Source: Planktothrix paucivesiculata PCC 9631
GTDB lineage: Bacteria; Cyanobacteriota; Cyanobacteriia; Cyanobacteriales; Microcoleaceae
Assembly: GCF_900009265.2 (NCBI RefSeq)
Contig: NZ_LR735015.1
Coordinates: forward strand, 43,758 to 107,757
Direction of reading: 5' to 3'
DNA: 64,000 nucleotides
In this document: piece after piece, positions 2,946 through 43,307 of the stretch
How positions within the stretch are numbered: the stretch's first letter is position 1
Layout of the letters: each line of letters starts with the position of its first letter
Translations under genes and position numbers: made by a program
Notes under the pieces: generated by a model
What the model was told of the DNA's origin: nothing
What the model saw: only the letters and a program-made list of their open reading frames with translations
Databases searched by the model: none

Positions 2946-4334
2946 ATGACCTTGATTATTGCCGGAGAACGTAGTGGTGTTGGTAAAACAACAATTACAT
3001 TAGGGATTTTATCCTATTTAAAAAAACACTATTCTAATATCCAATCCTTTAAGGTTGGCCCCGATTATATTGATCCGATGTTTCATCACTATGTGACGGG
3101 TAAACCTTGTTATAATTTGGATTCAATTTTAACCTCTGAATCCTATATTAAAACCTGTTATCATCAACATATTCAGACTGCGGACTATGGCTTAATTGAA
3201 GGGGTGATGGGTTTGTTTGATGGCATTCCCGATGGAGAAAATGTTCCGATCGCTTCAACAGCCCAAATTGCCTTAATTCTGGATTTACCTGTGATTTTAG
3301 TCTTAGATTGTAGTCGATTATCGGGTTCTATTGCTGCGATCGCCATGGGTTTTAAAAACTTTAATCCCCATATAAAATTAGAGGGTTTGGTTTTAAATAA
3401 AGTCGGCAGCGATCGCCATTTAGAATTATTAAAAGCCTTCTTAGCCCCCCTGAATATTCCGATTATAGGAACAATTAAAAGACAGGAAAATATTGTGATT
3501 CCCGATCGCCATTTAGGGTTAATTCCTACGAATGAACTCCCCCAAATGGATTTATTCATTCAAGAGTTAGCTGAATTAGCGGAAAATTGGTTTGACTGGG
3601 AACAATTATTACCCTTATTAAAAAATACTTTAAGTTTTAATGATCGAGTAGACTATACTCCTACGCCATGGGTTGAAAACACCCATCAACCGATTAGAAT
3701 TGCGATCGCTAAAGATGCTGCATTTAATTTTTATTATGCCGATAATTTAGAGATTTTGCAACAGTTGGGGGCAGAATTAATCGAATGGAGTCCGTTAAAT
3801 GATGATCAATTACCTGAAGAAATTCAAGGATTATATTTTGGGGGAGGTTTTCCCGAGGTATTTGCCCAACAATTAAGTGAAAATCAGGTGGTTTTGAAAG
3901 CGCTTAAAACCGCTATTTTATCAGGAATGCCCACCTATGCCGAATGTGGGGGGTTAATGTATTTGTGTGAAAAAATTATTGACTTTGAAAATAATGCTTG
4001 GTCAATGCTGGGGATATTACCGACCACTGCGGTTATGGGAAAACGCTTAAAATTAGGGTATTATCAAGCCAAGGTGTTAACAAATACCCCTTTATTATCG
4101 GAGGGAGAAATCATCACAGGACATGAGTTTCATCGGTCTGAATTAAGGGAAAACCCCTCTCACCCTTTATATGAAATGCAGCGTTTTTTGTCCTCAGAAA
4201 CTAACGCCCCCGTATTAGAAGGTTGGGGAAATTATCCTAATGTGCATGGGTCTTATTTACATCTCCATTGGGGAAATAGGATTGATATTCCTAGCCGTTT
4301 TTTAAAGTCTTGTAGGGAGTGGAATGTTATATGA
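2946..4334 (+). CDS. cbiA: Cobyrinate a,c-diamide synthase
   Basis: CbiA/CobB amidates the a and c carboxylates of cobyrinate using glutamine and ATP, a step in the corrin ring pathway. The N-terminal half is an ATP-binding domain of the dethiobiotin-synthetase type, with P-loop GERSGVGKTT at residues 7-16 and KVGPDYIDP after it. The C-terminal half is a class I glutamine amidotransferase domain: YAECGGLMYL carries the nucleophile Cys-334, and the His is in VHGSYLHLHW. Length (462) matches the family. It stands alone; the sister amidase gene cobQ is 29 kb away on the other strand. The start codon is ATG. Confidence 0.93.
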   Translation: MTLIIAGERSGVGKTTITLGILSYLKKHYSNIQSFKVGPDYIDPMFHHYVTGKPCYNLDSILTSESYIKTCYHQHIQTADYGLIEGVMGLFDGIPDGENVPIASTAQIALILDLPVILVLDCSRLSGSIAAIAMGFKNFNPHIKLEGLVLNKVGSDRHLELLKAFLAPLNIPIIGTIKRQENIVIPDRHLGLIPTNELPQMDLFIQELAELAENWFDWEQLLPLLKNTLSFNDRVDYTPTPWVENTHQPIRIAIAKDAAFNFYYADNLEILQQLGAELIEWSPLNDDQLPEEIQGLYFGGGFPEVFAQQLSENQVVLKALKTAILSGMPTYAECGGLMYLCEKIIDFENNAWSMLGILPTTAVMGKRLKLGYYQAKVLTNTPLLSEGEIITGHEFHRSELRENPSHPLYEMQRFLSSETNAPVLEGWGNYPNVHGSYLHLHWGNRIDIPSRFLKSCREWNVI

Positions 4335-11798: not shown

Positions 11799-12981
11799 AG
11801 TAGGTGGTCATAAATAAAGTCAATAATAGAAAAAGATTGTTTAGGATAATTCTTGAGAGTTACTCAGGGAATTAAATCGCAAGCGATCGCAGGTACAATC
11901 ATTTCTTTCGTTTCTATCTTCAATGGCTTGAATCACAGCTTGGCTCAAATCATATTCATCTTCAAACATTCTTCCCGCCAGTTCATGAGTTTTTAATTGA
12001 TGCCATTCTGGTTCGATTTCATTCAATTCAGGGCTATAAGCAGACAGGAAGAAAAATTCTAATTTTTTGTCTTGCCACTCCCTTTCTTTTTCTTGTATTT
12101 TTTGACTTTTATGGACACTGTAGTTATCTTGAATCAGTACGGTAATTTGTCGAGTATTTTGAAAATGCTTTTCAGCTTTTTCCGCTTGCCAATCTATAAA
12201 TTTTATGTAATTCTCACTTGTAATTCCTGACAAACTTAAACCGTACTCAAAACTTTTTCCTTTTTCTAATACTCCAATTACATTCAATCTTTTTCCTCGC
12301 TTTTTCGTCTGGTTTATTTGTTTCTGCTTCCCCTTTTTTACATAGGTGTAACTCACAGGACTCCATAAACAAAAACCTGCCTCATCTAAATATTTTAATC
12401 TGACCAAACCCTCTTCTTCATAACGCTTTAACGTCTCCAAATCTCTTTTCTTGCTCGCTGTTTTTTCGGGATTCTGTTTTTTCTTTAAACTGGCTTTTGT
12501 TCTTTTCCAGCGCCAGTCTTTTTTTTTTAAGATTTTTCTAATTCTTTCTGCGCTTAGTGCGATCGCTCTCTCTCGCAGAAGTTTTTCCGACAGTTGACGG
12601 CTATTATAAGTTCTTTCATCTGACTCTATACAAGTTTCTAAATATTCTATATCTTCTTCTTTCCACCTCCGTTTTCTTCCCGAACGAGGAGCATCAAATA
12701 ATCCTTCTTTTTCTTGATTTATCCATCGAGTTATTGTTTTTCTTACCATGGCTTCTGAACACCTTAAAGTCTGGGCTATTTTTGAGACCATCCATCCTCC
12801 ATCACTAAACATTAATATATCTATTCTCTGCCTTGTTCTTTTCGGAACTTTCTCTTGCTGATACAGAGTTAGTAGCTCTTGTTTTTCTTCTTCTGTTAGT
12901 TGAATTCTTAACCTCAGTGGCATGACTATTCCTCTGATATTTCTTCATTTCTTATTTTAACTCTATTTATGACCACCTACT
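11799..12981. mobile_element. IS630-family insertion sequence, copy A
   Basis: The 1183-bp element has terminal inverted repeats AGTAGGTGGTCATAAATA / TATTTATGACCACCTACT and is flanked by TA on both sides, the standard IS630 target duplication. It carries one transposase gene. The other two copies are at 23325-24507 and 37200-38382 and have the same length and the same transposase translation. The left neighbour is a GAF fragment and the right neighbour an mscS fragment, so the two flanks do not come from one gene. Confidence 0.95.
11841..12923 (-). CDS. IS630-family transposase (copy A)
   Basis: This is a full-length 360-residue transposase. The N-terminal ~130 residues are helix-turn-helix domains (VSKIAQTLRCSEAMVRKTI, then a second DNA-binding unit around RQLSEKLLRERAI). 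The DDE catalytic domain is complete: Asp in LKYLDEAGF, Asp in VLIQDNYSVHKS, and Glu in SPELNEIEPEWHQLK. It is expected to cut and paste the element into TA sites. The reading frame is intact and identical in all three copies, so the element is probably still active. Two HIP1 octamers (11883 and 12559) lie inside the gene. Confidence 0.96.
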   Translation of the reverse strand: MPLRLRIQLTEEEKQELLTLYQQEKVPKRTRQRIDILMFSDGGWMVSKIAQTLRCSEAMVRKTITRWINQEKEGLFDAPRSGRKRRWKEEDIEYLETCIESDERTYNSRQLSEKLLRERAIALSAERIRKILKKKDWRWKRTKASLKKKQNPEKTASKKRDLETLKRYEEEGLVRLKYLDEAGFCLWSPVSYTYVKKGKQKQINQTKKRGKRLNVIGVLEKGKSFEYGLSLSGITSENYIKFIDWQAEKAEKHFQNTRQITVLIQDNYSVHKSQKIQEKEREWQDKKLEFFFLSAYSPELNEIEPEWHQLKTHELAGRMFEDEYDLSQAVIQAIEDRNERNDCTCDRLRFNSLSNSQELS

Positions 12982-13526
12982 TAGGACTTAAAACCACCTC
13001 ATTTGTGGCAATTCTAGGGGCTGCTGGGTTAGCTATTGGTTTAGCGTTGCAGGGATCTTTATCTAATTTTGCTTCGGGTGTATTTATGATTTTTTTTCGC
13101 CCGTTTAAAGTCTATGATTATATTGAAGGGGGAGGAGTGGAAGGAATGGTTGAAGAAATCCAAATTTTTACTACTCTCTTAAAAACACCTGACAATAAAA
13201 CCATTATTATTCCTAATAGTAAGCTATACGGAGATAAGATAGTAAATCACTCGATTCAACCGATTCGCCGAGTTGATATTAAATTGAATTTCAGTTACAA
13301 TACTGATCTGGATCAACTTAGGGAAGTTTTTAATACTTTGGTTCAAGCTGAACCCCGGATTTTATTAGAACCGATACCCGATATGGAAATTCAAGAAATA
13401 GCCGCGGGGGGGATTAAAACTTTATTAACGGTTTGGGTGGTTAATTCTGACTATTTGCGGGTACGTTCTGATCTGAATCAAAGGCTTAAACAGAGCTTAG
13501 ATGGGGCGGAAATTCAATTGGTTTGA
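12969..13526 (+). pseudogene. MscS-family mechanosensitive channel, N terminus missing
   Basis: The frame contains the pore helix and beta domain of MscS: TSFVAILGAAGLAIGLALQG, SNFASGVFMIFFRPF, and the EEIQIFTTLL and IIIPNSKLYGD blocks. The upstream transmembrane helices are absent. The frame begins inside the IS630 end, whose inverted repeat supplies an ATG (ATG ACC ACC TAC) in frame with the channel remnant, giving a 185-residue product if expressed. The missing N-terminal part is not on the other side of the IS, so simple insertion does not explain the loss. Channel function is unlikely. Confidence 0.85.
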
Positions 13527-23324: not shown

Positions 23325-24507
23325 AGTAGGTGGTCATAAATAAAGTCAATAATAGAAAAAGATTGTTTAGGATAATTCTTGAGAGTTACTCAGGGAATTA
23401 AATCGCAAGCGATCGCAGGTACAATCATTTCTTTCGTTTCTATCTTCAATGGCTTGAATCACAGCTTGGCTCAAATCATATTCATCTTCAAACATTCTTC
23501 CCGCCAGTTCATGAGTTTTTAATTGATGCCATTCTGGTTCGATTTCATTCAATTCAGGGCTATAAGCAGACAGGAAGAAAAATTCTAATTTTTTGTCTTG
23601 CCACTCCCTTTCTTTTTCTTGTATTTTTTGACTTTTATGGACACTGTAGTTATCTTGAATCAGTACGGTAATTTGTCGAGTATTTTGAAAATGCTTTTCA
23701 GCTTTTTCCGCTTGCCAATCTATAAATTTTATGTAATTCTCACTTGTAATTCCTGACAAACTTAAACCGTACTCAAAACTTTTTCCTTTTTCTAATACTC
23801 CAATTACATTCAATCTTTTTCCTCGCTTTTTCGTCTGGTTTATTTGTTTCTGCTTCCCCTTTTTTACATAGGTGTAACTCACAGGACTCCATAAACAAAA
23901 ACCTGCCTCATCTAAATATTTTAATCTGACCAAACCCTCTTCTTCATAACGCTTTAACGTCTCCAAATCTCTTTTCTTGCTCGCTGTTTTTTCGGGATTC
24001 TGTTTTTTCTTTAAACTGGCTTTTGTTCTTTTCCAGCGCCAGTCTTTTTTTTTTAAGATTTTTCTAATTCTTTCTGCGCTTAGTGCGATCGCTCTCTCTC
24101 GCAGAAGTTTTTCCGACAGTTGACGGCTATTATAAGTTCTTTCATCTGACTCTATACAAGTTTCTAAATATTCTATATCTTCTTCTTTCCACCTCCGTTT
24201 TCTTCCCGAACGAGGAGCATCAAATAATCCTTCTTTTTCTTGATTTATCCATCGAGTTATTGTTTTTCTTACCATGGCTTCTGAACACCTTAAAGTCTGG
24301 GCTATTTTTGAGACCATCCATCCTCCATCACTAAACATTAATATATCTATTCTCTGCCTTGTTCTTTTCGGAACTTTCTCTTGCTGATACAGAGTTAGTA
24401 GCTCTTGTTTTTCTTCTTCTGTTAGTTGAATTCTTAACCTCAGTGGCATGACTATTCCTCTGATATTTCTTCATTTCTTATTTTAACTCTATTTATGACC
24501 ACCTACT
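23325..24507. mobile_element. IS630-family insertion sequence, copy B
   Basis: Same 1183-bp length, ends and TA flanks as copy A. It lies between a truncated transposase (left) and an AATTACG array (right), ending 87 bp before the ribBA start. The left flank gene is missing its N-terminal half, so this copy too borders a deletion or rearrangement. Confidence 0.95.
23367..24449 (-). CDS. IS630-family transposase (copy B)
   Basis: The translation is identical to copies A and C: 360 residues, two N-terminal helix-turn-helix units and a complete DDE triad (LKYLDEAGF, VLIQDNYSVHKS, NEIEPEW). Its orientation is away from ribBA. Identity at protein level over three copies suggests recent spread or gene conversion. 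Confidence 0.96.
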   Translation of the reverse strand: MPLRLRIQLTEEEKQELLTLYQQEKVPKRTRQRIDILMFSDGGWMVSKIAQTLRCSEAMVRKTITRWINQEKEGLFDAPRSGRKRRWKEEDIEYLETCIESDERTYNSRQLSEKLLRERAIALSAERIRKILKKKDWRWKRTKASLKKKQNPEKTASKKRDLETLKRYEEEGLVRLKYLDEAGFCLWSPVSYTYVKKGKQKQINQTKKRGKRLNVIGVLEKGKSFEYGLSLSGITSENYIKFIDWQAEKAEKHFQNTRQITVLIQDNYSVHKSQKIQEKEREWQDKKLEFFFLSAYSPELNEIEPEWHQLKTHELAGRMFEDEYDLSQAVIQAIEDRNERNDCTCDRLRFNSLSNSQELS

Positions 24508-24508
24508 T

Positions 24509-24540
24509 AATTCGTAATTCGTAATTCGTAATTCGTAATT
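24509..24540. repeat. Heptamer array (CGTAATT orientation)
   Basis: Four copies of the reverse-orientation heptamer (ATTCGTA) begin at the right TA of IS630 copy B and end ~55 bp before ribBA. The IS630 may have inserted into, or recombined at, this array. Confidence 0.8.
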
Positions 24541-30329: not shown

Positions 30330-31328
30330 ATGCCAACTGTCAATACTACAGATAAAGAGCAAGTGGCTTCCAGAAGCACTCGACCGGTAACTACCGACAC
30401 AGTTCGTACCTATTTGCATGAAATTGGGCGCGTTCCTTTACTTACCCGAGAACAGGAGATTACCTACGGTAAGCAGGTACAGACCATGATGCAACAGTTG
30501 GAAGTGAAAAACACTCTCGCAGAACAACTGGGTCGAGAACCGAGTCAGCAAGAGTGGTCTGAGGCGGTGGAAATGAGCCAAGAGGAACTTCAAACCATCT
30601 TGAAGCAAGGACGTCGGGCTAAGGGAAAAATGATCGAAGCCAATTTGCGTTTAGTCGTCTCCATTGCTAAGAAATACCAAAAACGCAACATGGAATTTTT
30701 GGATTTAATCCAAGAAGGAACCCTAGGTTTAGAACGGGGCGTGGAAAAATTCGACCCCATGCGGGGATATAAATTCTCGACCTATGCTTATTGGTGGATT
30801 CGTCAAGCGATTACCCGTGCCATTGCCCAAACTTCTCGCACGATTCGTTTGCCCATCCATATTACCGAAAAACTGAACAAAATTAAAAAAGTTCAACGGG
30901 AGTTAGTCCAAAAATTAGGACGCAACGCCACTCCCGGGGAGATTGCCCAAGCGTTAGAGTTAGACCCGGCTCAAATTCGGGATTATCTGTTGGCGTCTCG
31001 TCATCCCGTGTCTTTGGATTTGCGGGTGGGGGATAATCAAGATACCGAATTGCAAGATCTCCTTGAGGATCATAATACCTCCGCCGATGCTTTTGTGACT
31101 CAAGAGTTATTGCGTCAGGACTTGAAAAATTTACTGGCGGACTTAACCGCCCAACAACGGGAAGTAATTACCCTGCGTTACGGGTTGGAAGATGGTAAGG
31201 AGATGTCCCTGTCTAAAGTAGGGGTGCAAATGAGCATCAGTCGTGAACGGGTTCGTCAACTGGAAAACCAAGCCCTAAACCACCTGCGGCGTCGTAAGGC
31301 TCAAGTTCGGGAATATTTGGCGAGTTAG
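30330..31328 (+). CDS. Group 2 sigma-70 factor
   Basis: This 332-residue RNA polymerase sigma factor has region 1.2 (TVRTYLHEIGRVPLLTREQE), region 2 ([20 protein letters not shown], then [20 protein letters not shown]), region 3 and region 4.2 (SISRERVRQLENQALNHLRR). Region 1.1 and the long N terminus of primary SigA are absent, as in the non-essential group 2 factors (SigB-SigE class) that direct stress and circadian promoters in cyanobacteria. I cannot fix which paralogue it is. The upstream leader is long, and a clear terminator follows at 31351. Confidence 0.92.
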   Translation: MPTVNTTDKEQVASRSTRPVTTDTVRTYLHEIGRVPLLTREQEITYGKQVQTMMQQLEVKNTLAEQLGREPSQQEWSEAVEMSQEELQTILKQGRRAKGKMIEANLRLVVSIAKKYQKRNMEFLDLIQEGTLGLERGVEKFDPMRGYKFSTYAYWWIRQAITRAIAQTSRTIRLPIHITEKLNKIKKVQRELVQKLGRNATPGEIAQALELDPAQIRDYLLASRHPVSLDLRVGDNQDTELQDLLEDHNTSADAFVTQELLRQDLKNLLADLTAQQREVITLRYGLEDGKEMSLSKVGVQMSISRERVRQLENQALNHLRRRKAQVREYLAS

Positions 31329-35898: not shown

Positions 35899-36795
35899 TC
35901 AGGTGTTGCCAATTGCCTGTTCCATGTTGCCTGTGATATCAAATAGGCGATCGGCGTGACAAAAGATTTCCCAGGCGCGAATTCCCATAAACCCAATCCC
36001 GGCAACCGCTAAGGGTATGGCAGCAGCACCTAAAAGCGTGGCAATGGGGGGAAATATCATACAAATTGTTAACAGAATTCCGGTCATTACACCCCCGGTA
36101 ATTCCAGCAGTAGCGGTGGCAGTAGCTACTTTTTCAACTAATTCAGACTGGGTAATTTTGCCTTCAACGTACAATAAAGAGTTTTCTAAAATAGAAAATA
36201 CTAACTCAATAACTGCTGCAACAATCGCACCTTTAAGAGTTGCCCCAACGATTTCGGCAACGGCTGTTTTCAAAGCGGCGCCTGCTAAAACCTTCTTCGC
36301 CGCGGCTAATTCTTGGGGGTTCATGTCCACCCCACCACGAGCCCGATTCACCGTAGAATATTCAAAAATCCCGTTAATGGCTTCGCTTCCGCCGCCATTA
36401 ACGTGGGCTTTGATGTGACTCCAATCCTTATCCTGACAGAAGTTACGAATGGCTTCTGGCCCTTGGGCGCTAATTTGGGCGGGTATGGATTCAAACACCT
36501 TGGCGGCTTCTTGAACACTTCGCATTCCATCACGCACACCCGCCCGAGCGAATTTTAATTGTAACCCTGTAGGTAGGTTTTCAAACCGGATATTATGGGC
36601 GACTTTAAAGGCTTCTTGAGTCACAACGACCCCAGCACCAACCATGGAACCGGGGGCGGATTCTACCCATGTCGTGACCGTCTTGGCACTGTCCTGAACA
36701 TTGGCAGCTATTTGGTTAGCGAAATTTTGGGTATCGTTAACCGTTTCTTGAACCTTGGCAGATAGAAATTCGAGGGGATTAGGGTTAATTTCCAT
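35899..36795 (-). CDS. Uncharacterised membrane-associated protein
   Basis: I do not recognise this 298-residue family. The N-terminal ~90 residues are helical and amphipathic. The middle has DKDWSHIKAHVNGGGSEA followed by EYSTVNRARGG; the W-x-H-I...H...GG spacing recalls the start of some HNH-type nuclease motifs, but this is only suggestive. Residues ~180-210 and 235-285 are strongly hydrophobic and rich in Ala/Gly, giving two or three membrane helices. The arrangement (soluble motif plus pore-like helices) could be toxin-like. It is convergent with the TonB-like gene and divergent from the sigma-fusion gene. Confidence 0.6.
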   Translation of the reverse strand: MEINPNPLEFLSAKVQETVNDTQNFANQIAANVQDSAKTVTTWVESAPGSMVGAGVVVTQEAFKVAHNIRFENLPTGLQLKFARAGVRDGMRSVQEAAKVFESIPAQISAQGPEAIRNFCQDKDWSHIKAHVNGGGSEAINGIFEYSTVNRARGGVDMNPQELAAAKKVLAGAALKTAVAEIVGATLKGAIVAAVIELVFSILENSLLYVEGKITQSELVEKVATATATAGITGGVMTGILLTICMIFPPIATLLGAAAIPLAVAGIGFMGIRAWEIFCHADRLFDITGNMEQAIGNT

Positions 36796-37199
36796 ATTGA
36801 TCCGGTTTGCCTGGTTAATTATTTAATTATTCTCACTATAGCAGAACTGAAGCCGTTGATAAAGTGTGATAATTTTTCTTAATTAAACCTTTGTTATTTA
36901 ATGCGGTTATGAGTTTAAAATTGATAAATAACCTGTAATAGTTAAGACCATGACCGCACCCTCTGAACGGCCAGCTATTGAGAATCTTCGGGGTAAATTC
37001 ACCAGTCCAGACCTTCAACAACGACTTACAGCCCTTTCAGACTGTCTAAAATTTGATCAAGGTTTAGATTTACTCGCGCAACAGGCATTAACCAACCCTT
37101 CAGAACAGGTTAAACAATCTGCTTATTGGGTGCTGTATGGTGATAATCCTTATTTAACTGAAAATGTTAATTTGCGATCGCCTAATATTATACAAGATA

Positions 37200-38382
37200 A
37201 GTAGGTGGTCATAAATAAAGTCAATAATAGAAAAAGATTGTTTAGGATAATTCTTGAGAGTTACTCAGGGAATTAAATCGCAAGCGATCGCAGGTACAAT
37301 CATTTCTTTCGTTTCTATCTTCAATGGCTTGAATCACAGCTTGGCTCAAATCATATTCATCTTCAAACATTCTTCCCGCCAGTTCATGAGTTTTTAATTG
37401 ATGCCATTCTGGTTCGATTTCATTCAATTCAGGGCTATAAGCAGACAGGAAGAAAAATTCTAATTTTTTGTCTTGCCACTCCCTTTCTTTTTCTTGTATT
37501 TTTTGACTTTTATGGACACTGTAGTTATCTTGAATCAGTACGGTAATTTGTCGAGTATTTTGAAAATGCTTTTCAGCTTTTTCCGCTTGCCAATCTATAA
37601 ATTTTATGTAATTCTCACTTGTAATTCCTGACAAACTTAAACCGTACTCAAAACTTTTTCCTTTTTCTAATACTCCAATTACATTCAATCTTTTTCCTCG
37701 CTTTTTCGTCTGGTTTATTTGTTTCTGCTTCCCCTTTTTTACATAGGTGTAACTCACAGGACTCCATAAACAAAAACCTGCCTCATCTAAATATTTTAAT
37801 CTGACCAAACCCTCTTCTTCATAACGCTTTAACGTCTCCAAATCTCTTTTCTTGCTCGCTGTTTTTTCGGGATTCTGTTTTTTCTTTAAACTGGCTTTTG
37901 TTCTTTTCCAGCGCCAGTCTTTTTTTTTTAAGATTTTTCTAATTCTTTCTGCGCTTAGTGCGATCGCTCTCTCTCGCAGAAGTTTTTCCGACAGTTGACG
38001 GCTATTATAAGTTCTTTCATCTGACTCTATACAAGTTTCTAAATATTCTATATCTTCTTCTTTCCACCTCCGTTTTCTTCCCGAACGAGGAGCATCAAAT
38101 AATCCTTCTTTTTCTTGATTTATCCATCGAGTTATTGTTTTTCTTACCATGGCTTCTGAACACCTTAAAGTCTGGGCTATTTTTGAGACCATCCATCCTC
38201 CATCACTAAACATTAATATATCTATTCTCTGCCTTGTTCTTTTCGGAACTTTCTCTTGCTGATACAGAGTTAGTAGCTCTTGTTTTTCTTCTTCTGTTAG
38301 TTGAATTCTTAACCTCAGTGGCATGACTATTCCTCTGATATTTCTTCATTTCTTATTTTAACTCTATTTATGACCACCTACT
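37200..38382. mobile_element. IS630-family insertion sequence, copy C
   Basis: This is the cleanest of the three copies. The TA before it (37198-37199) and the TA after it (38383-38384) are the target duplication, and the flanks join into one open frame when the element is removed. It interrupts the fusion gene after codon 83. Length and ends match copies A and B. Confidence 0.97.
37242..38324 (-). CDS. IS630-family transposase (copy C)
   Basis: 360 residues, identical in translation to copies A and B, with an intact DDE triad and two helix-turn-helix units. It is transcribed against the interrupted host gene. No outward promoter towards the sigma part was recognised. Confidence 0.96.
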   Translation of the reverse strand: MPLRLRIQLTEEEKQELLTLYQQEKVPKRTRQRIDILMFSDGGWMVSKIAQTLRCSEAMVRKTITRWINQEKEGLFDAPRSGRKRRWKEEDIEYLETCIESDERTYNSRQLSEKLLRERAIALSAERIRKILKKKDWRWKRTKASLKKKQNPEKTASKKRDLETLKRYEEEGLVRLKYLDEAGFCLWSPVSYTYVKKGKQKQINQTKKRGKRLNVIGVLEKGKSFEYGLSLSGITSENYIKFIDWQAEKAEKHFQNTRQITVLIQDNYSVHKSQKIQEKEREWQDKKLEFFFLSAYSPELNEIEPEWHQLKTHELAGRMFEDEYDLSQAVIQAIEDRNERNDCTCDRLRFNSLSNSQELS

Positions 38383-40317
38383 TAATATTCAAGTCGTAGG
38401 AACCAATAATGGCAGTATTTATATTCAAAACCTTAATCAATACCCTAATCCATCTCGTAGAATCACAGGTCATACTGGATTTATTAGTTCTATTGCTGTT
38501 AGTGCTAATGGCAAACTATTTGTTAGTGGGAGTCGGGATTGGATCAAAATTTGGGATTTGCAAACAGGAGAACCTTTATATCTCCTAGAAGGTGAGTATC
38601 CTAAGCTAAAATCATTACAAATTAACCCTAATTATAGAGAGCTATATTGTGGTCAATCTCAACAATTTAATGTTAAAGGTTTTGATCAATATAATCAACC
38701 TATTCCCATCGGACAAGTCACTTGGACGGCTACAGGGGGAACAATTAATCAGAATGGTTATTTTATTCCATTAGAGGATGCTGATGGAAGTTATGAAGTT
38801 TATGCTAAAGCTATCCCAGAGAATATTAGCGATTTAGCTGAGTTTAAAGTTATTCCTGTTCCCAAGATAAAAGATGTTTATGTTTCATCTGATTTTAGCA
38901 ATAGAAATCCGGTTAAACCTTATTTCATAGATGAAGTGATTAAAACGGTCGGTGAAACAATAGAAAAATTAGATCATTCCAAAAATAATCCTAACCCCGA
39001 ACCAACTCCACGTCCAGCACCATGTCCAACACCGAGTCCAACACCATGTCCAACCCCAAGTCCAACCCAAACTCCGACTCCAACTCCGACTCCAACACTA
39101 ACTCCCGAACCCAAGGAAAACCCTGAAAGCTATTCTAAAATGGCAATAGGAGTATTCACTCGTTGGCATATTCGATCTTATATCTTCCGAGATTTGGATG
39201 AATTTAAATTACTGTATGGTCATTTGTATGGTTATTACCAGATGCCATTTGGTAAATGGGTTAGATCCCGGCGTCGAACTCAGACCAAGAAAAAACACTA
39301 TACAGAAGATTCGATTCGTCTTTATCTGCAAGAAATTAGTCGAATTCGTTTATTACGCGCGGATGAAGAAATTGAACTCGCTCGTAAAATTGCCGACTTA
39401 CTTGAACTAGAGCGAATTCGGGAAAAATTGATGGAACATTACGACCGCGAACCCAATGAGCAAGAATGGGCAACCGCCGTTGAAATGAGGCTACCAGAGT
39501 TCCGCCGCCGTCTTTATATAGGCCGTCGGGCTAAAGATAAGATGGTACAGTCTAACCTGAGACTGGTGGTTTCCATTGCCAAAAAATATATGAATCGAGG
39601 TCTATCTTTCCAAGACTTGATTCAAGAAGGCAGTTTAGGATTAATTAGAGCCGCCGAGAAATTTGATCACGAAAAAGGTTACAAATTTTCAACTTATGCG
39701 ACCTGGTGGATTCGTCAGGCAATTACTAGAGCTATTGCTGATCAATCTCGGACAATTAGACTACCAGTTCACCTGTATGAAACCATTTCTCGGATTAAAA
39801 AGACCATCAAGTTACTGTCTCAAGAAATGGGTCGCAAACCCATGGAAGTAGAAATCGCAACTCGCATGGAAATGACCATCGAGAAGTTACGGTTTATTGC
39901 GAAATCGGCTCAACTTCCAATTTCTTTAGAAACACAGATTGGAAAAGAGGAAGATTCTCGCCTAGGAGATTTTATTGAATCCGATGGCGAAACTCCTGAA
40001 GATCAAGTGTCTATGAATCTATTACGAGAAGACTTAGAATATGTATTAGATACCCTCAGTCCCCGTGAACGAGATGTCTTACGTTTACGTTATGGGTTAG
40101 ATGATGGTCGGATGAAGACATTAGAAGAAATTGGTCAGATTTTTAATGTCACCCGTGAACGGATTCGTCAAATAGAGGAGAAAGCTCTCAGAAAGTTACG
40201 TCATCCTAACCGTAATAGTATCTTGAAAGAATATCTATTGTTATTTTAGGATCTAAAGCAGTGCGAGCGTTCTTCCTCGTTACACCCCAAAATCCACCAA
40301 TTAATTGTTTTAATATC

Positions 40318-40424: not shown

Positions 40425-40606
40425 AAATATTATTGTATTTGCGATCGCATATTCTTATATTAATATCAATTTTAGTAAGATGGTGCGTGTTAATTTGATT
40501 GGGGTTGCGATCGCTCCTATTTAAAATAGTGTAATACTTGAAAAATTATCAAATTTATGATACAATAACCCATATAGTTTTTAACTCATTAATTCCTAAT
40601 AAACTC

Positions 40607-40897
40607 ATGAACCTTGATGACCTGCTGAAAAGTTATCGTCAAGAAATTTTAAGGATTGCGGCTCAATATGGAGCCTATAATATCCGAATTTTTGGATCTG
40701 TGGCTAGAAATGAAGCAGATTCCAATAGTGATGTAGATTTTTTAGTTGAGCTTGAACCTGGAAGAAGTCTTTTTGATTTAGGTGGACTTCTGATGGACTT
40801 ACAAAATTTATTAGGGTGTCCAGTTGATGTTGTTACAGAAAAAGGTTTAAAAAAACGAATTCGTGAACAAGTATTAAAAGAGGCAATTTCCTTATGA
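40607..40897 (+). CDS. mntA: MntA-type nucleotidyltransferase antitoxin
   Basis: This 96-residue minimal nucleotidyltransferase has the signature [22 protein letters not shown] followed by the D-x-D metal ligands. In MntA-HepT modules this protein AMPylates or otherwise blocks the HEPN toxin. ATG 40607 ([15 protein letters not shown]) is the natural start; the longer frame from 40538 begins with TTG. Its stop overlaps the start of the next gene (ATGA), giving coupled translation, typical of such pairs. Confidence 0.9.
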
Positions 40898-41232
40898 GAA
40901 GCGATTCCGAAAAATTAAAGGATATTTTGGAAGCTATTATTCGGATTGAAAAATATTCTGTTCAAGGTAAGACCTGTTTTGAAGAAGATGAATTAATTCA
41001 AACTTGGTTTGTGCAAAATTTACAAATTATCGGCGAAGCATCTCGCGCACTTTCAGGAGATTTTAGAGAACAATATTCAGAAATGCCTTGGTCACAAATG
41101 ATTGGAATGAGAAACATCTTAGTTCACAATTATTTTGAGATCGATACAGAAATTGTTTGGTCTGTTATTGAACGAAATTTACCCGAATTAAAAGCTCAAA
41201 TAGAAACTATTTTAAGAAGAATAGATAATTAA
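40894..41232 (+). CDS. hepT: HepT-type HEPN toxin (DUF86)
   Basis: This 112-residue all-helical protein of the HEPN/DUF86 family carries the RNase-type R-x4-H motif in [10 protein letters not shown]. The motif is intact, so the toxin should be active as an RNase when freed from MntA. DUF86 features such as [17 protein letters not shown] precede it. With the upstream mntA it forms a two-gene toxin-antitoxin operon in which, unusually among TA modules, the antitoxin is an enzyme. Confidence 0.9.
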
Positions 41233-41282: not shown

Positions 41283-43307
41283 TTATTGTTTCCACAACTT
41301 CACCGTCCGGTCATAACTTCCCGTGGCTAACCATTGACCATCGCCACTAAACGCCACCGTAAAAACATCACTATCATGGGCTTTAATGGTTTCTAATAAT
41401 ATCCCTTTTTGTACATCCCAAATATCAATTATTCCCTGTCCTCCTCCACTCACTAAAAACCGATGATCTGGGCTAAAAACAATATTAAATATCTCTTGAT
41501 CATCGGCTCTTAATGTTCTTAATAATACCCATTTTTCCTGTTGATTTTGCCATATTCTAATCATGCCGTTTTTAGACGCCGAAGCCAACAATTGACCGTT
41601 TAAACTAAACGCCACACTTCGCACCCAGTCCCCATGACCTGTTAAGGTTTGGACTTCCTTTGCTGTGTTCAAATCCCAAATTTTTACCGTTTGATCTCGA
41701 CTCCCACTGGCTAACTTTTGACTATCCAAACTAAACGCCACACTATAAACTCGATCCTGATGACCTGTTAAAGTAAACCCCCGTTTTCCCTTATTCATAT
41801 TCCAAATTTCAATATTTTTATCTCGACTTCCACTGGCTAAAAATTGACCATTGGGACTAAACGCCACCCCTTCCACCCCGTCTTGATGACCCGTGAGGGT
41901 ATACCACCTTTTACCCTTGGTCATATCCCAAATTTCAATGGTTTGATCCCGACTCCCACTCGCCAAAGTCTTGCTATCAGGACTAAAAGCAATGGTCGTG
42001 ATCCAATTGCTATGACCAACTAAGGTATACCACCGTTTCCCCGAGTCCAGCCGCCAAATTTCAATCGTCTGATCCTGACTCCCACTCGCCAAGGTCTGGC
42101 CATCGGGACTGAAAGCCACTCCGGTAATGGCGTTGCGATGACCACTGAGGGTATGGACACACTTCCAAGAGGGCGGGTGCAAGGGTTGAACACGCTGCTG
42201 TTGGGGGGGTGTCAGTTGTTGGATCGTGCGGGGGGGTAAGGTCTGGGAGGGGGCCGGGGCGGGAGTTCTAACGGTTTGGGGTGCGGGAGTTGGGGGGGAT
42301 GGGGTTTGTAAATGGCGGGCGATCGCTACGGGTATGCCACTCGGATGTAGATCTTTTAGGACTTTTAAGGCAGAATCATAACGTTGACTGGGTAATACGG
42401 CTAACATTTTATCTAATATTTTTCCTAATTCCGAACTCACATAATTTTGTTTTAAATAATCTCGCCAAATCCATCGATCCTCATGAATATCATATAAATC
42501 AAAAGGGGAAATGTGCGTCATTAAATAAATACAAGTTACCCCCAAACTATAGATATCACTGCTATAAATTGCCTGTCCTCGGGTTTGTTCCGGGGCGACA
42601 TATTCGGGACTCCCAATTACTGTTCCCATGATTGGAACTTGACTATCGGTAACGACCTTTGCGGCTCCAAAATCGACTAATACTAACTGACCTTGAGGTT
42701 GAGAACCCGCAGGAGTATTTGGAGGCGAAGATTCTCCCCGCAATTGTTGTAAAAATTCAGGACGAACTAAGGGCAATTGTGCCGATAAAGATCCCTCTCT
42801 CAGAATAATATTCGCGGGCTTAATATCTCGGTGAATTACCCGATGATGATGAATAAATTGTAAAACTGGTAATAAATCATCTAAGACTTGACGAATTTGG
42901 GCTTCATTAAAAATCCCGTGATCCAAAATTTCCGCTTCTAAGTTCGGCCCATTAATAAATTCTTGGACTAAATATTGATGATTCTCTTGTTCAAAATGGG
43001 CTAATAATTCAGGAATTTGAGGGTGTTTTCCCAACTCATCTAATCTTTCTGCTTCTCGATGAAATAACTCAATGGCTTTTTGAGAATTTCCCTGCATTTG
43101 GGGGCGAAATTGTTTAATCACACAAGCCGGACGGGAGGGTTTATCTTCATCTACGGCTAAAAATGTTTTACCAAACCCCCCATGACCAATCACTTTAACG
43201 GCGCGATACCGTTCTCTTAATAACAATTTTGCCCCACAGGTTAAACAGAATTTAGCCTCTGGGGTGTTCTGGGGTTGAGGACAATGGGGATTTAGGCAAT
43301 AACTCAT
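41283..43307 (-). CDS. Ser/Thr protein kinase with WD40 propeller
   Basis: An N-terminal zinc ribbon (CLNPHCPQPQN...CLTCGAKL) precedes a Hanks-type kinase domain: glycine loop IGHGGFGKTF, catalytic HRDIKPANI (Asp ~161 from this start), DFGAAK and the APE-like YVAPEQT. A Pro-rich linker (~340-385) leads to about seven WD40 repeats (GHRNAITGVAFSPDGQTLAS and similar) forming a propeller. An inserted loop lies before the DFG motif. Such kinases are common in filamentous cyanobacteria; substrates are unknown. ATG 43307 (MSYCLNPHC) is preferred to the TTG at 43322. No transmembrane helix is present. Confidence 0.92.
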   Translation of the reverse strand: MSYCLNPHCPQPQNTPEAKFCLTCGAKLLLRERYRAVKVIGHGGFGKTFLAVDEDKPSRPACVIKQFRPQMQGNSQKAIELFHREAERLDELGKHPQIPELLAHFEQENHQYLVQEFINGPNLEAEILDHGIFNEAQIRQVLDDLLPVLQFIHHHRVIHRDIKPANIILREGSLSAQLPLVRPEFLQQLRGESSPPNTPAGSQPQGQLVLVDFGAAKVVTDSQVPIMGTVIGSPEYVAPEQTRGQAIYSSDIYSLGVTCIYLMTHISPFDLYDIHEDRWIWRDYLKQNYVSSELGKILDKMLAVLPSQRYDSALKVLKDLHPSGIPVAIARHLQTPSPPTPAPQTVRTPAPAPSQTLPPRTIQQLTPPQQQRVQPLHPPSWKCVHTLSGHRNAITGVAFSPDGQTLASGSQDQTIEIWRLDSGKRWYTLVGHSNWITTIAFSPDSKTLASGSRDQTIEIWDMTKGKRWYTLTGHQDGVEGVAFSPNGQFLASGSRDKNIEIWNMNKGKRGFTLTGHQDRVYSVAFSLDSQKLASGSRDQTVKIWDLNTAKEVQTLTGHGDWVRSVAFSLNGQLLASASKNGMIRIWQNQQEKWVLLRTLRADDQEIFNIVFSPDHRFLVSGGGQGIIDIWDVQKGILLETIKAHDSDVFTVAFSGDGQWLATGSYDRTVKLWKQ

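Follow-up and report, generated by a model that had tools for sequence, protein, structure and literature searches.

Exchangeable RNA polymerase modules on a predicted WD40/Ig-like scaffold family of cyanobacteria

We analyzed a window of 64,000 nt from Planktothrix paucivesiculata PCC 9631 (contig NZ_LR735015.1, positions 43,758 to 107,757; G000:C145:43758-107757 in our numbering of the 6.15-Mb source genome), in which a gene at 36950 to 40249 carries a sigma-70 factor behind WD40 and immunoglobulin (Ig)-like domains. Judged by sequence comparison, this gene is a recently decayed member of a scaffold family of very large proteins, whose C-terminal slot has repeatedly been filled by the cell's own RNA polymerase (RNAP) subunit, namely sigma-A, group-2 sigma, alpha, beta or omega. 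We infer that the RNAP module links the protein to transcription. The most likely role appears to be defence, with the module as an integrated RNAP bait on a propeller/Ig scaffold, to which we give a probability of roughly 40%. The genus was covered by 10 genomes, source included; where needed, genomes, contigs and loci are cited by our own G, C and L numbers.

The window gene has no continuous open reading frame (ORF). An 84-codon frame starting at 36950 runs into an IS630-type insertion sequence (IS), and a second frame, 563 codons from its first start, ends at 40249. The parts are as follows.

36950 to 37199, plus strand: 5′ end of the scaffold gene, some 83 codons belonging to the helical start conserved in the family, cut by the IS; it aligns to the intact genes L037 and L038 and matches the 86-position N-terminal model A2 (E = 5.4e-52).
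37200 to 38384, minus strand: IS630-type element plus one TA, replacing 771 bp of the gene; transposase ORF at 37242 to 38324 (minus).
38385 to 38610, plus strand: the final WD40 blades of the scaffold (limits set by eye); Pfam WD40 (E = 2.4e-7) at residues 23-58 of the stretch from 38384.
38611 to 38862, plus strand: a single Ig-like (Big_1/Big_2) unit, borders by eye; Big_1 E = 0.037.
38995 to 39118, plus strand: linker of Pro/Thr repeats (limits set by eye), at which the cassette swap described below has one of its borders and homology between the sigma-type (G007) and alpha-type (G001) genes stops.
39119 to 39268, plus strand: junction segment common to the three sigma-type copies, its DNA 97-100% identical in the window, G007 and G008.
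39269 to 40249, plus strand: SigA-derived module, sigma regions 1.2 to 4.2, without the acidic SigA N-terminus.

An earlier note on this DNA, made from its letters alone, had read the gene as one frame once the IS is taken out. Removal of 37200 to 38384 (1185 bp, the IS630 element plus one TA) indeed leaves a single open frame that spans 36950 to 40249 and has 704 codons before the stop. By comparison with the intact gene of G007, the left flank of the window aligns up to base 2305 and the right flank picks up at 3075, so that 771 bp (257 codons), holding most WD40 blades and the segment behind them, are missing exactly at the IS630. Both breakpoints are TA and lie in the same codon phase, a 1-in-3 coincidence that explains why the frame is open after excision. 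The 704-aa joined protein is thus ruled out as the ancestral form, and a protein of this shape is unlikely to have existed before the IS came in. The IS630 copies at 11799-12983, 23325-24509 and 37200-38384 are 100% identical, a sign of very recent transposition, and with three identical copies within the window the 771-bp loss probably arose by recombination between two of them. The N-terminal piece, the WD40 match, the Ig unit and the locus, common with the genes of G007 and G008, mark the window gene as a family member, and the idea of a later inactivation holds for it. One WD40 repeat passes in the window, and six do so in each of three relatives. The Ig-like domain proposed earlier is weak here and solid in relatives (Big_1 E = 7.5e-11 in L041; Big_2 E = 3.5e-12). 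The proposed HEAT-like helices found no Pfam HEAT match; the first 84-86 aa match RPN13_C best (E = 0.015-0.023). For the junction segment, neither a source in the loci compared nor a Pfam match was found, and sigA homology begins only at its 3′ end.

IS-free versions of the gene were found in two other genomes of the genus, with 1064 aa in G007 (L037) and 1237 aa in G008 (L038). Both are uninterrupted, and their parts follow one another as in the window gene, from a WD40 propeller through Ig-like repeats and the Pro/Thr linker to SigA regions 1.2-4.2. Because these two fusions are intact, the fusion predates the IS, as had been supposed; the restored frame given as proof does not serve, since it lacks 257 codons. 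Among the relatives compared we saw none with the WD40/Ig protein and the sigma gene apart.

The sigma part is as close to SigA as claimed, with 95.4% identity over 329 aa to the strain's own SigA, 676 bits against the RpoD model NF005643 (cut-off 500) and 419.7 bits against TIGR02997 (cut-off 384.5). The usual SigA N-terminus is missing: homology starts at RRRTQTKKK with scaffold sequence upstream, and no acidic region precedes region 1.2. The source genome holds a second, complete sigA (L002, an open frame of 441 codons) among 8 sigma-70 region-2 matches, the fused one included, and the fused copy is not the sole primary sigma. An ordinary stand-alone group-2 sigma gene (L004) lies at 30330-31325, its start about 8.9 kb before the fused sigma module.

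Trees and ratios of nonsynonymous to synonymous substitution (dN/dS) were computed from the genus genomes only. Nine of the 10 hold one housekeeping sigA each; the incomplete G005 (73% complete) yielded no comparable sigA and no rpoA. Pairwise NG86 dN/dS of the three fused sigmas was 0.080, 0.059 and 0.106, with 0.059-0.080 for the window copy against the other two, and that of housekeeping sigA was 0.008-0.018 (four pairs computed). The fused sigma is under purifying selection, less strict than that on housekeeping sigA. Compared with nine housekeeping SigA proteins, 8, 11 and 3 of 316 residues are private to the three fused sequences, and within regions 2.1 to 2.4 (positions 83-157, borders by eye) such residues number 0 in G000, 1 in G007 and 0 in G008.

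In three other genomes of the genus (G001, G002 and G009), the same scaffold ends in RNAP alpha, with a total length of 1705-1722 codons. According to Pfam, the alpha part of L041 has the insert domain, the dimerisation domain and three C-terminal domains (alpha-CTDs). One of these alpha-type fusions stands on the named chromosome of P. rubescens PCC7821 (G002). In G003, the alpha part is on a short contig that terminates in the Pro/Thr repeat; the locus (L089 and L039) appears to be a single one that assembly broke at this repeat and misjoined over contigs C34 and C63. The scaffold gene of G004 retains one alpha-CTD only, without the assembly domain. The alpha N-terminal domain (NTD) runs through in four genomes, and the four fused alphas form one clade with a support of 1.000. 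Their pairwise dN/dS ranges from 0.08 (G001-G002) to 0.39, and that of housekeeping alpha from 0.05 to 0.10 (three pairs computed); a normal rpoA is present in 9 of the 10 genomes, G005 being the one without. Altogether, 8 of the 10 genomes, window included, have an RNAP module at this gene, and G005 and G006 gave no scaffold match.

We compared the sigma-type gene of G007 with the alpha-type gene of G001. The two are homologous to the end of the Pro/Thr linker, their modules are wholly different, and homology resumes about 40-45 bp past the sigma stop, at 92.4% over 499 bp and then at 95.5% in an alignment of 2069 bp over a kinase-WD40 gene. This common downstream anchor indicates that both types occupy the same locus. 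The sigma and alpha modules can be read with confidence as alleles of one slot, swapped as a cassette. At E = 1e-3, no debris of the other RNAP type was detected downstream in the Planktothrix loci.

Beyond the genus, we searched with scaffold pieces only, never with RNAP parts. Model A2 matched in 32 of 388 genomes of the order at E ≤ 1e-8. Model A3, built on the hydrophobic helical module, matched in 10 of 386 phylum and 13 of 61 family genomes at E ≤ 1e-8, and in 32 of 388 order genomes at E ≤ 1e-6. One contig scan returned 8 loci, 4 of them cyanobacterial. The distribution is sporadic with either model (32/388 in the order). We left aside weak matches of the N-terminal model in G158 (two), G171, G379, G380 and G246, and the second match in G224.

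The C-terminus could be read in 34 scaffold loci: 14 end in an RNAP module, 11 in a second WD40 propeller, 8 in a short conserved tail, and 1 (G055) is unclear, the WD40 and short-tail classes being assigned by eye. The count leaves out G189, G371 and G030:C94, where the frame ends at or near the contig end, and G266, whose locus L154 encodes a 691-aa WD40 protein with no Ig part seen. The short tail, of the SWFYRSQLFYDGYS type, is found in RNAP-free members, and L144 and L198 carry it behind a frameshift or a stop. This tail, of SQLFYDGYS type, forms the C-termini of L136, L137, L044, L146, L151 and L197, and is present in frame 2 of L144 and past the stop in L198; in L129, a stretch resembling it stands directly before the omega domain.

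The largest module is in G205 (L199, same family), where an open frame of 1960 codons comprises a transmembrane (TM) segment, Ig repeats and RpoB residues 11-1104 of 1104 at 90%, with rpoC1 fragments behind it. Of the genomes tested, 14 of 14 have an rpoB elsewhere than in the scaffold locus. In G205, this operon rpoB has a 2-nt frameshift near codon 700 (L226:2755-2775) and 97.9% DNA identity over 3429 bp to the open fused copy. Either the fused beta is the working copy or, at least as likely, there is an assembly error between the near-identical copies.

In G125 and G190, which belong to one genus (L181/L232 and L196/L233), the scaffold ends in a group-2 sigma with regions 1.2-4, and an rpoC1 relic lies downstream in both. 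G190 is Geminocystis sp. NIES-3708, and its scaffold gene resides on the 60,790-bp plasmid NZ_AP014816.1. In the plasmid collection, this plasmid alone covered 80% of the query. Of the 1390-codon frame (L249:9001-13173), its gene table lists just the final 1,014 bp, as an ordinary sigma factor, and no gene for the scaffold part; the table is incomplete by its own description. Since only the sigma end is listed, such fusions are easily overlooked. In the phage collection, the ten matches listed concerned the sigma part only, and no record covered 80% of the query. The Microcystis phage MaAM05 (MW495066.1) has an rpoD gene of its own, which shares 52% identity with the sigma module in the G008 fusion.

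Three further members have omega-like C-termini, which we regard as firmly identified in L129, moderately in L138 and weakly in L180. The L129 tail (Microcoleaceae UBA9251) matches omega in NCBIfam (E = 5e-7 and 3e-7) and scores above 600 shuffles. That of L138 (G356), with a relic of the SigC end right after it, reaches 26.0 bits with Pfam Rpb6 (E = 9e-6, cut-off 26) and E = 0.09 with NCBIfam RpoK. The L180 tail (G161) stays under the Pfam cut-off (20.8 bits, E = 4e-4) and gives E = 0.07 with NCBIfam omega. Omega or RpoK is the sole NCBIfam match at E ≤ 0.1 for each tail. With a two-sequence RpoZ profile, L129 came out top (E = 8e-8) and L180 next (0.04), and L138 was not separable from shuffles. 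Neither L180 nor L138 matched an RNAP protein in sequence searches of the PDB. Some 2.2 kb away from the L129 scaffold gene, at L129:7883-8107, lies a normal rpoZ from which the omega module may have been captured.

At least five separate captures are thus counted (sigma-A, alpha, beta, group-2 sigma and omega), or seven with both weaker omegas. No housekeeping gene other than an RNAP gene was seen in the slot among the 34 readable loci. With assumed numbers of about 15 RNAP genes among about 5,000, the chance of five RNAP captures is about (15/5000)^5, or 2e-13, and that of four, as sigma-A prompted the search, about 8e-11.

The scaffold consists, in order, of the N-terminal helical piece, the WD40 propeller, often a hydrophobic or TM segment, Ig-like repeats, the hydrophobic helical module and an Ig unit. 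The Ig units repeat every ~84 residues, and their copy number varies among members, relatives having more than the single unit of the window gene. The hydrophobic segment lies behind the first WD40 blade group (residues 279-356) and passes a Kyte-Doolittle cut of 1.6 in L041, L043, L044, L129, L136, L138, L139 and L141-L151. A strong N-terminal hydrophobic segment is present in L181, L197 and L199; L196 fails the cut. In L181 and L199, the TM segment and the positive charges after it stand ahead of the Ig part; by the positive-inside rule, this part and the RNAP module lie on the cytoplasmic side. Stops, frameshifts or an IS interrupt the window copy, L198, L200 and L144.

Around the window gene, we noted three neighbouring features.

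35899 to 36795, minus strand: divergent upstream neighbour of 298 aa, with the same gene in the G007, G003 and G004 loci; no Pfam and no PADLOC match.
40538 to 41232, plus strand: two small ORFs directly 3′ of the gene, which we take to be an MNT/HEPN-like pair; the first matches the PADLOC candidate defence protein PDC-S09 (E = 6e-41), the second has no match. The pair is also downstream of the G008 gene.
41283 to 43304, minus strand: serine/threonine kinase with WD40 repeats (Pfam Pkinase E = 4.5e-40), the downstream anchor mentioned above.

Several relatives stand beside defence genes. DruE is encoded directly upstream and on the same strand of the scaffold gene in G082, G387 and G383 (E = 6e-94, 2e-35 for the fragment scanned, and 7e-92), of which G383 and G387 belong to one genus. 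In G055, the scaffold gene is flanked by a DUF1156/HmaB-like methyltransferase and a PLD/SNF2 helicase (PbeA/DrmD/HmaA-like). The G206 and G386 loci have a ZorD/DpdE-like helicase and a type IIG enzyme within about 5 kb, and a recognisable RNAP module is absent from all of these members. At the loci with defence flanks, we scanned 14 proteins picked by eye, and 10 had a PADLOC match, the G082 DruE being counted twice. Beside the G387 scaffold gene are genes that we take to be TniQ-, TnsC- and TnsB-like (L231:14704-17944), possibly a transposon of the CRISPR-associated kind.

How might such a protein act? Phages bind or modify host RNAP and defences sense such attack, as described in sections of a review (PMC12409349). 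The module would be a copy of an RNAP surface bound by phage takeover proteins. The propeller/Ig scaffold, in many members probably membrane-attached, would trigger a response once the bait is occupied or modified, and exchange of the module would let a different takeover protein be sensed. In the window strain, the protein would no longer be made in one piece. What defines an integrated decoy, a copy of the pathogens' host target, is present in the form of RNAP subunits in 14 of the 34 readable loci, and relics of other RNAP genes just downstream, a SigC end (L138) and rpoC1 pieces (L181, L196 and L199), support a bait. So do the range of RNAP parts found on one scaffold, the cassette swap at the Planktothrix locus, purifying selection on the fused sigma and, less strongly, on the fused alpha, the sporadic distribution, the defence genes beside several relatives and the candidate PDC-S09 gene beside the window gene. 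More tentatively, the family may form a new class of immune or conflict receptor with interchangeable RNAP-subunit baits, allelically swapped between strains, whose module repertoire would record the RNAP parts attacked by phages.

Several observations weigh against a bait in a defence system. Defence genes flank the scaffold gene directly at 4 of the 19 loci listed (G082, G387, G383 and G055), a raw count, and these four clear neighbourhoods belong to RNAP-free members or, in G055, to an unclear and frameshifted one. Among 10 scanned neighbours of RNAP-fused loci, one gave a strong match (the MNT-like ORF of the window, PDC-S09), one a marginal match (ZorA2, E = 3e-4, G356) and 8 none. No effector domain such as a nuclease or toxin was recognised among the Pfam matches listed. 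The hydrophobic segment falls below the cut of 1.6 in L037-L040, L042, L137, L140, L152 and L198. L129 has no Pfam omega match, and the omega matches of L138 and L180 are weak. The fused sigmas are not one resolved clade in the tree (supports 0.2-0.7), so gene conversion or separate sigma captures are possible.

The nearest rival, which we hold possible but doubtful, is a regulator of the tether or alternative-holoenzyme kind, in which the fused subunit assembles into RNAP and brings a possibly membrane-bound scaffold to redirect, localise or brake transcription. Near-complete modules would suit it, as the sigma has 0 or 1 private residue in regions 2.1-2.4, the beta is full length and the alpha NTDs are intact in four genomes; so would the frameshifted operon rpoB of G205 beside its open fused copy, and the TM segment with following positive charges ahead of the Ig part in L181 and L199. 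The single alpha-CTD of G004, without an assembly domain, does not fit such a regulator; a housekeeping regulator would not be expected to occur so sporadically, to exchange its modules and to leave debris; and four different subunit types would be odd for one regulatory mechanism. The earlier idea of a sigma factor regulated by its N-terminal part fails as a general answer, since the same N-terminal part bears alpha, beta or omega elsewhere. We prefer the bait over the tether because phages target RNAP, the G004 alpha-CTD has no assembly domain, the modules turn over fast and relatives lie beside defence genes. In an unlikely alternative, the protein would itself be the effector, directed against phages or competitors, and would enter or block phage-hijacked RNAP, like the predicted EAD10-GreA/B-C proteins. 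Conflict proteins with an RNAP-association module, including a cyanobacterial archetype, are predicted in parts of PMC8195603, and the Druantia- and DISARM-like neighbours would agree with such interference; but no nuclease or other effector was recognised, and GreA/B-C is not among the Pfam matches listed (the best 25 of 60-65 families per protein).

Two further explanations need no function. A repeat-rich, recombining locus may take up 3′ gene pieces by accident and yield transient, functionless fusions, as the Pro/Thr DNA repeat at the Planktothrix border, the variable Ig copy number and the broken copies (the window gene, L198, L200 and L144) would suggest. We consider such neutral capture improbable, as all captured genes seen are RNAP genes in at least five events (the above chance of about 2e-13, on assumed gene numbers), the modules are under purifying selection, and no Pro/Thr repeat is present at the joins in Geminocystis, in G205 and in the omega-type members. 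The chance fusion suggested earlier for the window gene is contradicted likewise, as one scaffold family has joined with different RNAP parts again and again and the modules are under selection. An assembly or sequencing artefact that joins separate genes has the G003 allele, split over two contigs at the repeat, in its favour, but joins of the same kinds recur in independent assemblies, including the PCC7821 chromosome, the complete plasmid NZ_AP014816.1 and the single-contig genome of G205. We rejected it as extremely improbable.

To our knowledge, cases in which a core RNAP subunit has been duplicated and joined to another protein are very rare. The scaffold family described here took up two kinds of sigma as well as alpha, beta and omega in separate events, and at one locus its modules are exchanged as cassettes. 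We found no description in the open-access literature searched of RNAP subunits fused to a WD40/Ig scaffold, of other fusions of alpha, beta or omega, or of exchange among them, and on this ground we rate a scaffold family with exchangeable RNAP modules as a categorically new kind of protein. If the modules are baits, they reveal the RNAP surfaces attacked by cyanophages and offer a direct handle on phage takeover proteins; if they are assembled into RNAP, the family provides natural tethered polymerases. Either reading can be tested in the named strains Geminocystis NIES-3708 (plasmid) and Planktothrix PCC7821.

Among known systems, polymorphic toxins and contact-dependent inhibition proteins combine a constant N-terminal scaffold with an exchangeable C-terminal module and have displaced pieces downstream. 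The scaffold family is alike in its constant scaffold, in C-terminal modules swapped at one locus (sigma versus alpha) and in downstream relics, and differs in that the modules are RNAP subunits, not toxins, and that no immunity gene was seen by eye. In plant nucleotide-binding leucine-rich repeat (NLR) receptors with integrated decoys, a host target domain is built into a large repeat protein. A built-in host target is shared, whereas no NLR-type NTPase was seen here, and a sensing role would be inferred only. MzaA of the MZA system has a sigma-70 domain in a defence context, and the fused sigma resembles it in the generic sigma domain only, with 330.8 bits against the MzaA model, under the cut-off of 800; Mza models had no match among the three window neighbours scanned with PADLOC. 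A survey of 4,193 cyanobacterial sigma-70 factors (Gevin, Latifi and Talla 2024, PMC11119718) gives, in the portions available, WD40 (8.39%) and NB-ARC (9.09%) as accessory domains, at the ends only. The earlier statement that no such architecture is known stands insofar as these portions describe no such protein, but WD40 is listed there as a sigma-70 accessory domain. They mention neither an Ig-like nor a Planktothrix case, nor any scaffold on which sigma is replaced by alpha, beta or omega. A further likeness is to the EAD10/GreA-B-C systems, described in parts of PMC8195603 as sporadic conflict proteins, also cyanobacterial, with a predicted RNAP-association module; those systems combine GreA/B-C with TPR, PIN, EAD or other effectors, whereas the scaffold family combines whole RNAP subunits with WD40 and Ig-like repeats.

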